Source: Opeltia flavorubescens (taxonomy: Eukaryota; Ascomycota; Lecanoromycetes; Teloschistales; Teloschistaceae). Taken from it: a stretch of DNA of 64,000 nt. The notes beneath the pieces are model-generated. The model had not been told where the DNA came from, ran no database searches, and saw only the letters and a list, made by a program, of their open reading frames with translations. The stretch is taken from the NCBI GenBank assembly GCA_000442125.1, contig KE546965.1:620001-684000 (forward strand), written 5' to 3'. A program made the translations under genes and the position numbers. This document shows, piece by piece, positions 53,023 through 64,000 of the stretch. The first letter of the stretch is position 1. The number at the start of each line of letters is the position of its first letter.

Positions 53023-53870
53023 TTACTTTTCGATGCGGATAAAGAGCCTCACACCTTTCAACTCTTGTATGAGCAGCTCAGCTTCCTTGAGAGTGTGCAT
53101 CCATATGTCAGCATATTCAGAGACTTCATTGTAGTAGATCCCTATTTTTAGCCTTGACACAGAAAACTGCACAGTACGAATGTCGGTGATATCGATTCTT
53201 ATTCTCGGGTCGCGATCAGCTGGAGTTTTTTCGTGAATGTGGAGTTCTGTCTTAGATTTGGCAGAATAATTGACAAGCTGCAGGTGTACGTTGTTGAGCA
53301 TCTGGCTCGATGATACGATAATCTTGACCGGGACAGACCATGGACAAGGGGCTGCTGTCTCGTCTGGTTGGAAGATCCTGTGAGTTCGGAATCATGTTGC
53401 AGCTTGATGGACTTACTATCTATTGCGGCAGGCACAGAAAAATCAGAAAGTAGAGCTGTCAGCACAGCATCTTCTACCGTCACTTTGTTGGCCTTCGCTG
53501 ATTGTAAATCGTGCCAAAGATTGAGCAGAATGTTGCGGAGATGAGCGGTCATGGATTTGTTACGCCCCTCACTTTCGCTGACACTCCGTATCTCGATCTC
53601 GCGCTCCAGAATAGTCTTGATGATGTTTTTGGCCTTAGGTACCTTCTCGAGTGAACCATAGAGGCTAATTAGACGTGGCGGCTCGACCTTGAGCGCTCCC
53701 ATATTACTGACACCATCGTTGTACTGCTGCTCCAGCGAAATAGTATAGCGCTCTAGTAAATCGATAAAAGGCTCCAAAACTGCATTCCCCGTTGGAAGAT
53801 ATTTCTTTGCCGTGAGGAGTGTCTCTACGTCTTTCAGAGTAGCTAAGAAAATGGTCATTTTTCCACCCAT
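53023..53870 (-). CDS. Array paralogue A: helical plus beta-domain protein (261 aa)
   Basis: Exons are 53870-53417 and 53354-53023, intron 62 bases in phase 1. No known family is recognised. The N-terminal part has the array signature TLKDVETLLTAKKYLP, then PFIDLLERYTISLEQQ, and a run of helices ending LWHDLQSAKANKVTVEDAVL. After the intron comes a beta-rich domain: PWSVPVKIIVSSSQML, NNVHLQLVNYSAKSKTELHI, IRIDITDIRTVQFSVSRLKI, then a helix (MHTLKEAELLIQELK) and a final strand. There is no signal peptide, membrane segment or Cys-rich pattern, so it is probably intracellular. It is the member nearest the left edge of the array and transcribed toward it. The alternative acceptor closer to the donor would destroy the beta domain, which supports this join. 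Confidence 0.72.
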
Positions 53871-55280
53871 GACTGCGAATTGCCCAACTTCTGCAGTGGA
53901 ACATCGAGTCAGTGATGAAGGTAAGGTCCACGACGATAGGGAGTGGAGGAAGATTTGAGTGGCTCGATGGCTAAGTCAGTCGAGCCATGTGAAAATATCA
54001 CAATAATATCTTGATGGCCATCAATTGCGATGTCAATGACACTGTTCTGTTGAGCGTAAAATGGGATCAGAAGATATGGGATTTTTTTCGAGCTCAAAAT
54101 GTAGTCAAAGATCAGAAGTCAAGTGAGTCAAGCACTAAGCTCAATCTAAAACAATATCTCCATTGATAGATCTTTGAACTCAAAGTCAATAAAATAAGCT
54201 CGGTGACTTTATACTAATTCTTAGCTGATTTAATTTTTCGAAGAAAGTAATCCCAAAGCCTGGGTCCATTCGGTTGGATAATGCACGGCCTAAAGTTAGG
54301 AAGATGTCCGAAACGGATGAATTTCTGCATAACATCATACGTACTATGCCTCATTTCATGGTCAACTCTCCTGGATGGAGCGAGAGGAGCAACAATCCTA
54401 AGATGCAATCGAACACCATGAAGCATGTCCGAATTCCAGAATGGGGCTGTCACTCAATCGCACACATCAGAAAAGTAGTACTACCTTTCAAGGCTATGCA
54501 TGAAAATATCAGCATTCTCGAAACCCAATATCTCGAGAACAGGCCTTCGAGAAACTTGGTCGTCAATATGAGAACGAAAATAGGCAGAGTTACAACATTG
54601 AAGGCACGAAGTCAGCCAAGGCTGTGAAGTAAGGAGACCAGTAAACAGCAACGTAGCATGTATGATTGTCCACTGGAGGCATCACAAGATCAAACAGGTA
54701 GGTAGGTCACACGATGCTTGAGCTATAAACTGTGTGGACTCGCGATCCTCATCGCCGTGGTTGGAAAATCTAGAGAATTGATCGAGTGACAGATCTAAGC
54801 TCGAAAGGGTATCGTAGCTCTTGGCAGTGCATCCCGGCCAATATCTTCCGAGGCTATTGGCAAACCCTTCCATATTACAGATTACTGGTAGTCGATACAA
54901 CGATTCCAGTTTTACGCAAAAACAGTCGACTTCAGCGCATTCAACGAACGTTTTCGTATTGCATGTCTTCTACATACTCTGACAGCTTGTCGTGAATTCG
55001 CCTGGCTATAAAGGTGATAGGTACAGCCAAGCCAATCAGCGTTATCATTGTGAAGTCACAGAAGTAATTGGTCTTGTTCATATCTCAATTGATTCCGATC
55101 CTGCAATGTACTAATATTGCCTGTGCATAGAATGATGAAGTGTAATCAATAAGCATGCACCGTTACCCAACACCATGACGCCATTAAACCTTGGTGGGCT
55201 TCAACGTTCGTCCCAACCACAACTCGCTCATGTCATCCCTTGAATGAGATCAGAACCATCCTAATAAGGATCATATCTAC
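53871..55280. other. Array spacer, 1.4 kb, possible paralogue relic
   Basis: On the minus strand, 54453-54214 encodes FWNSDMLHGVRLHLRIVAP, which resembles the start of the beta domain of paralogue A (SSSQMLNNVHLQLV) and sits after a similar GACAGCCCC acceptor-like context. Further along, 54060-53960 reads NSVIDIAIDGHQDIIVIF. No intact frame joins these, so at most this is a decayed copy. Confidence 0.35.
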
Positions 55281-56013
55281 TTACACTGTCACCTCTTTGC
55301 AGCTGAAATCATCGCCGGCCTGGCTCACTAATCTGGCTAGAAATATGACCGAGTTGTTGAATCCCCCGTTGGGTTGCGGCGGCAAGTCGATGAAAATGTC
55401 GTGGTACATCTGCTCTCCGCAATTCAGCTCGAAGTGGAACTGGTTCATTCCTAAGCAGACATCTGCACGGATAATATCACTGGCTCGGAATCGATATATC
55501 GGATCCTTAGCCCCCATGTTTATGCCTTTGTGGAGCTCGAATAGAAGTGCGTCTTCAGTACTGCAGACAAGTTTGAGTTCGTTTTTGATAGGCAGGATGA
55601 TCTCTGGCCCTGCGGTATAGCAGCAGATCGGAGTAGACCAGTCATCCACTGGCATGGACATCGCCTGCAAAATGATCAGACCTTATCGCACTCGTGCGTG
55701 TGGAATGATTTACCTTTTCGAGCCGAGTTCTCCTCTTTCGTTGATCATTGCGTTCGGGGTATCTCGATACATCGAGATCTCTCAGGAGCATTACAATGTC
55801 CGTAAGCATGCCCAGCAATTGGATCTTCTCAGCAGCAAAATCGGCTTCGGTAACGTTTTCGTTGATTCCGGCAATCTTCTCGAAGATTATCTCGGTGAAT
55901 TCGGGGAGTTGTACATTGAAAGTGGTTATGGATTCGTGGATATTGAGTAGCTCTCGGATTTCATACACTTGGTTCAAAACAAGTCTCGCCGGTGTCAGCG
56001 TCCGATTAACCAT
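55281..56013 (-). CDS. Array paralogue B: helical plus beta-domain protein (227 aa)
   Basis: Exons are 56013-55714 and 55664-55281, phase 0 intron of 49 bases. Not a known family. The N-terminal part contains LVLNQVYEIRELLNIHESI (the array's L-x-x-I-x-x-L core), then FTEIIFEKIAGINENV and LLGMLTDIVMLLRDLDVSRY. It ends in a basic stretch (NDQRKRRTRLEK) at the splice site. The beta domain has PEIILPIKNELKLVCSTEDA, LLFELHKGINMGAKDPIY, IIRADVCLGMNQFHFELNC and the final SVIFLARLVSQAGDDF. It is shorter than its relatives, lacking part of the middle helical region. Same strand as A, D and E. Probably intracellular; function unknown. Confidence 0.68.
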
Positions 56014-62409: not shown

Positions 62410-63411
62410 AGTGTACAATGCGAAAATGGGCAAAAAAAGGGTTTGAAGTGGTATCATGTGTTGGTTCGGCGACATCTGTGGAGGGAAAATTCGGGAGCTA
62501 TTGACAAAAGATCTAGGGGTATTATACGAAAGCAGACCATGCGTCGCGATTATGCAACGACACATATTCACCAGATGCTGACAACGTTTTCTATGAGTGT
62601 TGTCTGTGAGGTATATTGACTGTCGCATTCCCGGAAACTTTTTTATAATCTTAAATTGCGTAAATTGTGTCTCGCACCGAGCTCCCACATCTTAGCTAAC
62701 ACGTAGCATTCTGGAAATATTTCTATTGAAGGGACCCAAATGCGAGTACATTCGGTATTTGCCAGGATGAAGCTATCCATTTCAGAAGCGTGGGAGCTCG
62801 TAGAATTGATGCTCATATGATCGATGTCTTAGAAGTCTAGATGAGAGGTGAATAGGTTCACTCTATGTTGATCAGAGTACCGCGTGAGGATATGTCATTG
62901 AAAACTAAATTTCGTACATTTACTGGAGTCCCCGAGAAAGCAACGATGAGCATGATAGGCGGAACATCAAATTCGTTGATGGATGCATAGTTTCCTTATT
63001 TCTCTTCATAGTCGTCTGTTCTTCTTCACTCAAATATGATTGTCTCACAATCATGTAGTTGTATGCCTCAAGATCCCTTGGACATCTTCCATTTCTGATG
63101 AAATCCCCGGTAACGCATCATCAGCATTCCCGGCTTTAGCTTGTCTACTTGCTATGTGTCAATTCGCGACACCATTTTTGCGGTCACCCCGAAGGCTTTG
63201 AGATGTTGTAATTGTGTCAAGAAATTTGATCACATAACCTTAGCAAGGGACGGCATATACATTCATATCTTGAGCAGGATTTTCGTGCCACACTTTTCTT
63301 TCGTGTCCTCTTTGTAAAGTCGCTATCCTTCCAAAGTTGCGAGATACTCGAGTGTCGTCACAAGCGACAACGCAATAAAGTTTTCAAGAAACAGCAGTCC
63401 AATATCTCAGC
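62410..63411. other. Array spacer, 1 kb
   Basis: AT-rich; it should hold the promoter of paralogue G. No gene supported. Confidence 0.5.
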
Positions 63412-64000
63412 ATGGCAACCAATCCACTTGACAGTGTAATTGCTGCGATCTGCTCAATGGCTGCTCAGAACGTCGGCATAAAAGATCGTCCTTTCGACGA
63501 ACTACTTTCCGAAATCGAAGCAGCCTTACAAATTCGCAAGAGTCTAGAAGATGCGAACTACGAGTACATGGGCTTCAACACTAAATGGATTGATGATTTC
63601 CTCTCCAAGGAAACTGAGAACATCGAGCAATATACCATTGCGGCTTCCAGCATTCAAGGACTAAAAAATATTCGCCGCGCCCTCGATCTACAAAAGGAGT
63701 TGAACGACATGAATCTTCTCGATCTTGTGAAACACAAGCTTGATACATTGACAGTCCGCCAATTCTTGATGCTGGAGAATTCTGCGACTAGCCCAGTCAA
63801 GGTAAGATTTGAAGCACTTGAAAAAGTCTACGAGCTAATCAAAATAGCAGGAGCTGACTGGACCAACTATAACCGAGGTCGACTCACTGGACGATAACAT
63901 CCCATGTGTATTTCATACGCAAACGGATGGATTCGTTGGCTTTCGCGTTAAAGCATTCGGTTCGAAAGACAACATGTTCTACGATAGTGAGCAACGTCTA
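63412..64000 (+). CDS. Array paralogue G, cut by the right edge of the window
   Basis: Exon 1 is 63412-63801 and exon 2 starts at 63851, phase 0 intron of 49 bases, and runs off the window. The start ATGGCAACC has a good context. The N-terminal domain is the longest in the family: PLDSVIAAICSMAAQNVGIK, LLSEIEAALQIRKSLEDA, NTKWIDDFLSKETENIEQ, IQGLKNIRRALDLQKELN and LLDLVKHKLDTLTVRQFL. Exon 2 begins ELTGPTITEVDSLDDNIPCV and FHTQTDGFVGFRVKAFGSKD, parallel to the NAFQCFRGWHN region of E. The rest of the beta domain lies outside the window. No signal peptide. Confidence 0.74.

Follow-up and report, generated by a model that had tools for sequence, protein, structure and literature searches.

A stretch of 64,000 nucleotides from Opeltia flavorubescens (contig C1:620001-684000, hereafter the window, in whose coordinates unprefixed positions are given) ends in a tandem array of small two-exon genes, which raises the question of whether these genes form one family, how old and how extensive such a family is, and what its products might do. 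The answer reached here, with all analysis drawn from this one genome (an assembly of 34.4 Mb in 23 contigs), is that the family is real, old and larger than first described; as clustered lineage-specific genes are already known in fungi, it adds a new family to a known class. Its 11 copies are lettered A, B and D-L, letter C being an unrelated open frame between B and D; E, F, G, I, J and L are termed G-type, and D, H and K are termed D-type. Introns are given as models without RNA support.

Two subfamilies in two clusters

By sequence comparison, the six G-type copies share common descent, the homology of E, F and G extending over both exons. Of the 13 matches that a genome search with gene E returned at E values up to 10, 12 are the exons of the six G-type copies (6e-99 to 0.13), and one lies elsewhere (E value 3.4). 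With gene L as query, J, E, I and F were clear matches and G a weak one, and gene G found E, F and I together with weak matches to J and L (E values 0.07 and 0.3) at C1:87-91 kb. When each G-type exon was compared with a profile of the remaining members, values of 97.0-99.4% were obtained in all 12 comparisons, six for each exon; the pieces of F, which has a low coding score, separately match I, E and G. Searching with D retrieved both exons of K (46% and 33%) and exon 1 of H (43%), with no others at E values up to 10, and the same kind of evidence places D, H and K in common descent. Judged from these searches, the family is confined in this genome to two clusters on one contig, namely A to I at C1:673.0-687.6 kb and J, K and L about 580 kb away (Table 1). 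The array of six genes in 11 kb reported in a preliminary description of this DNA is real; it extends past the window edge to H and I, and the second cluster has to be added to it.

The gene models confirm the two-exon layout that had been claimed for A, B, D, E, F and G and bear out the range of 49-81 bases for their introns; of the five phase 0 introns claimed among the six, four stand (B, D, F and G), E being in phase 2 and A in phase 1. According to a coding score trained on the codon use of 22 long frames in the vicinity, the modelled frame ranks first of six in 20 of the 21 family exons, both exons of A and of B included, as well as in gene C; the one exception is exon 1 of the broken copy K (rank 2 of 6), and the four lowest scores among 22 stretches fall on exons of F and K, both of which contain stops. 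The motif W-[VIM]-D-D-x-L-x(6)-[LI]-E is present in E, F and G, as described, and the repeated core motif is found in all six window genes. Scored with a matrix built from the six G-type copies, the core motif of A, B, D and H in each case exceeds all 292 control fragments (45-residue pieces of open frames, not all of them real proteins), and the score of K is reached by eight of the 292.

Old duplication, local multiplication and decay

Among the G-type copies, exon 1 is 21-44% and exon 2 17-33% identical between pairs, and the first-cluster neighbours E, F, G and I are merely 23-33% identical. At the settings used, DNA repeats of at least 24 bases between 52500 and 64000 amount to one direct repeat (two copies, 74% alike) and no inverted repeat. 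Repeat-induced point mutation was rejected as the source of the stops, the dinucleotide indices of both clusters being near background. Because this signal is missing and DNA-level repeats are almost absent from this part of the window, the duplications are old; the scarcity of repeats and the low identities likewise support the earlier proposal of old duplication with strong divergence.

Three of the 11 copies are broken, F and K through an in-frame stop and H through having no second exon found. Gene order and orientation are alike in the two clusters, with G>H> <I (63412 to L002:3641) corresponding to L>K> <J (L015:7073 to L016:1524). A single cassette duplication as the origin of this order is not favoured, because J and L are sisters in the tree (100/98, with long-branch warnings). 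In the exon 2 tree, E, F, G and I are separate from J and L (99/98), and from these two groupings the copies seem to have multiplied locally within the clusters, several long branches leaving the inner order unsure.

Membership of the D-type and of A and B

The D-type appears to be related to the G-type, by a link weaker than those within either subfamily. In co-linear profile comparison with the G-type (149 control fragments for exon 1 and 112 for exon 2), exon 2 of D and of K aligns with the G-type end over 54 columns, scores that 1 and 2 of the 112 controls reach, none of them over so great a length. A local search matched E and H along the whole of exon 1 (E value 0.08), and a short sequence ahead of the intron, [RK]Q-[KER]-[SA]-x-L, is by eye common to D, H, F and I.

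A and B are graded as probable distant members rather than proven ones, because the earlier reading had picked them partly by the core motif. That they lie outside the family, which would then consist of the G-type and D-type copies, and resemble it through a generic helix-plus-beta layout, is considered rather unlikely. In its favour, neither has a significant second match in the genome, B having no second match at E values up to 10 and A having two besides itself, on C9 and C8 (E values 0.03 and 0.05). By profile alone neither is significant against the G-type; B gives 0.9% against the exon 1 profile, below the best of 30 B shuffles (1.5%), and its exon 2 does not stand out from the controls, 72 of 112 reaching its score. 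Against this, the core motif of both, placed near the start as in the family, tops every control, although this argument is not fully independent, since the motif guided their original choice. Exon 1 of both genes and exon 2 of A also align co-linearly with the G-type: A exon 1, which is longer than the controls, is equalled by 2 of 149, B exon 1 by 9 of 149 (none over as many as its 74 columns), and A exon 2 by 8 of 112 (none over so many columns). The inclusion of A and B in the preliminary description is retained as plausible on the strength of the motif, with genome search and profile comparison furnishing no proof.

Domains, location and database searches

Exon 1 encodes a predicted helical bundle of about 100 residues, and exon 2 probably encodes a PH-like beta domain closed by a helix, as suggested by a sub-threshold match to PH_35 (PF25424) and by weak structural matches. 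The nearest library model, PH_35 (the PH domain of a fungal deubiquitinating enzyme), has strands followed by a closing helix, as is probable for exon 2, and the last third of G and D aligns to the middle of its profile; the scores, however, are about 15 bits (G 14.7, D 14.6) against a curated cut-off of 28. With exon 2 alone, one of six members matched PH_35, at a best E value of 0.0044, and a PH_35 search of this genome found nothing, the profile being silent in every control genome as well. The Avo1 PH domain is among the best structural matches, all of them weak and based on models of low confidence. Phosphoinositide-binding PH domains carry a conserved basic motif, K-x(n)-[KR]-x-R, between strands 1 and 2. 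This lipid-binding motif is not seen in the first loop of the family, where a basic run occurs in F and is not common to E, G, I, J and L (by-eye alignment with uncertain strand borders).

The Pfam domain scans took in the products of A, B, D, E, G, I, J and L, none of which reached the cut-off of a Pfam family. At E values up to 10 the eight proteins matched six families, among which fungal NLR/STAND, HeLo, gasdermin and protease domains are absent, and the HET domain (PF06985) has no match in any of the eight. In a protein database of 5.8 billion sequences, whose fungal share is undefined and whose silence is no proof of lineage restriction, G alone had no match at an E value of 1; a five-gene profile found just the exons of E itself at E values up to 10, and an exon 2 profile just exon 2 of E. 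No paper on this family is among the literature matches listed. The earlier statement that no named family has this plan therefore holds for Pfam, PADLOC and PDB sequences, fungal proteomes having had no proper search and H and K lying outside the scan. Simple hydropathy revealed no clear membrane segment (L, at 1.64, is marginal), and no signal-like start was seen, the best 8-residue mean in the first 30 residues being 0.7-2.5 (no dedicated signal-peptide program was used); the lack of both suggests that the proteins may be cytosolic.

Paired genes and candidate functions

In all three cases (E>D, G>H and L>K, with spacings of 503, 481 and 876 bases), the D-type gene lies directly downstream of a G-type gene on the same strand, a placing expected from orientation alone in about one case in eight. 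The paired G-type products carry net charges of -11 (E), -11 (G) and -3 (L, without its last nine residues), and positive charges occur in those without a partner (I +9, J +3, and F +6 as the sum of its pieces). The D-type is basic, with D at +9 and exon 2 of K at +3; isoelectric points are 9.9 for the exon 1 piece of H and 9.5 for that of K, the long frames of the window ranging from 4.4 to 10.0. This signal, small and post hoc, is suggestive of acidic G-type and basic D-type products pairing as partners.

It is tentatively proposed, with somewhat less than even confidence, that the family encodes small cytosolic two-domain adaptors acting by protein contacts, to which a recognition or conflict role would be suited. 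The helical half would associate family members with one another, the PH-like half would bind a protein ligand, and each D-type product would act as partner to that of the G-type gene just upstream of it; copies would arise and vanish by birth and death, a mode of evolution that would suit recognition or conflict, possibly non-self recognition after hyphal fusion. Such a role would be compatible with the three broken copies and with the HET-domain frame located 3.8 kb from L with a symporter in between. Several points weigh against the proposal: tested one by one, the first exons of D, H and K show no significant match to the G-type (68, 6 and 133 of the 149 controls reach their scores); a joint D-type exon 1 profile gives 0.8% against G-type exon 1 (E value 0.07), below the best of 30 D shuffles (1.4%); and the facts suit an ordinary orphan adaptor family almost as closely as a recognition role. 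In that case the genes would be lineage-specific adaptors or scaffolds for growth, development or stress that underwent tandem expansion and partial decay with no conflict role, an account that is possible, with doubt outweighing it. Neutral loss also yields broken copies, the frames flanking the main cluster resemble housekeeping genes by eye, and clustered lineage-specific paralogues are, according to a Neurospora study, common, few of 670 having a recognised domain (PMC10684091); the low identity of E, F, G and I and the proportion of broken copies suggest, on the other hand, weak or shifting constraint. Should this be merely an orphan family, it would still illustrate clearly how a two-domain gene duplicates, diverges and is lost, its intron marking the domain border.

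The adaptor proposal with a recognition role can also be set beside known systems. The Neurospora study places lineage-specific genes in clusters with HET genes near telomeres (PMC10684091). To the Neurospora crassa clusters as depicted there, the present family is similar in forming local paralogue clusters without known domains and in having a HET-domain gene 3.8 kb from its second cluster, which is situated about 90 kb from a contig end; it differs in that the main cluster, some 0.67 Mb inside the contig, has no neighbour that is confidently a HET gene, and in that its copies have a common two-domain plan. Two-gene units control fungal cell death, according to a second source (PMC10197012), and het-S/nwd2 and gasdermin with its protease, as outlined in it, resemble the pairs described here in being two adjacent genes in a repeated arrangement, whereas both genes here seem to belong to one distant superfamily and show no HeLo, NLR, gasdermin or protease match. 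A more specific version of the proposal, in which acidic G-type and basic D-type proteins, each combining a helical bundle with a PH-like domain, encoded as a repeated co-directional pair and diversified by birth and death, would form a novel two-protein recognition system that sets off responses to non-self or conflict with no HET, NLR or gasdermin domain involved, is improbable; if true, it would add to fungal self/non-self recognition a gene class lacking the usual domains and traceable by the same pair in other fungi. A selfish killer-and-antidote family (a meiotic driver), with the related protein pairs as poison and antidote, is very improbable: the tandem array, the broken copies and the opposite charges of related paired genes would agree with it, but yeast wtf drivers have a membrane segment, of which there is no clear sign here, and no named family was matched at a cut-off. 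Secreted effectors directed at a host or competitor are scarcely credible, in that strong divergence and the lack of relatives found would suit them, but the protein starts are not strongly hydrophobic.

Gene models and neighbouring genes

Table 1. Family copies of the two clusters (window coordinates unless prefixed; the window ends at 64000)
Gene	Type	Position	Strand	Exon 1	Exon 2	Intron	Remark
A		53023..53870	-	53417-53870	53023-53363	53364-53416 (53 nt, phase 1)	probable distant member
B		55281..56013	-	55714-56013	55281-55664	55665-55713 (49 nt, phase 0)	probable distant member
D	D-type	58069..59010	-	58750-59010	58069-58668	58669-58749 (81 nt, phase 0)	
E	G-type	59514..60312	-	60020-60312	59514-59970	59971-60019 (49 nt, phase 2)	
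F	G-type	61584..62409	+	61584-61910	61960-62409	61911-61959 (49 nt, phase 0)	broken; in-frame stop in exon 1
G	G-type	63412-64294	+	63412-63801	from 63851	63802-63850 (49 nt, phase 0)	
H	D-type	from 64776	+				broken; past window edge
I	G-type	67641-66878	-				past window edge
J	G-type	C1:87.1-91.5 kb (second cluster)					
K	D-type	C1:87.1-91.5 kb (second cluster)					broken
L	G-type	C1:87.1-91.5 kb (second cluster)					

Exon 2 of D comprises a Pro-rich linker and the putative PH-like end, E has an additional in-frame ATG at 60456, and several intron models are equally good for J. Between E and F, positions 60500-61500 hold no gene model and, relative to 1-50000, show a lower G+C content (0.42) and a raised TpA/ApT ratio (0.82, as compared with 0.67). 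Gene C (56489-57619, minus strand) is an intronless-looking frame with no Pfam match at E values up to 1; its diverged paralogues lie on contig C7 (34-39%) and, in pieces, on contig C3 (41-64%).

The genome has 88 HET-domain matches, which together with its short introns point to a filamentous ascomycete. With regard to HET-like frames, a long frame at 13323-15815 (minus strand), about 37 kb from the main cluster, has a HET match just below the curated cut-off (20.8 vs 22.5 bits), and a frame at L015:3-1385 (minus strand; C1:80.0-81.4 kb), about 6 kb from the second cluster, is HET-like by eye with no Pfam match at E values up to 0.01. Beside the array, a frame with a DUF6536 domain (L002:5158-6210, plus strand) is followed at L002:9120 by an HSP70-like start, recognised by eye in a 90-residue piece without a Pfam match.
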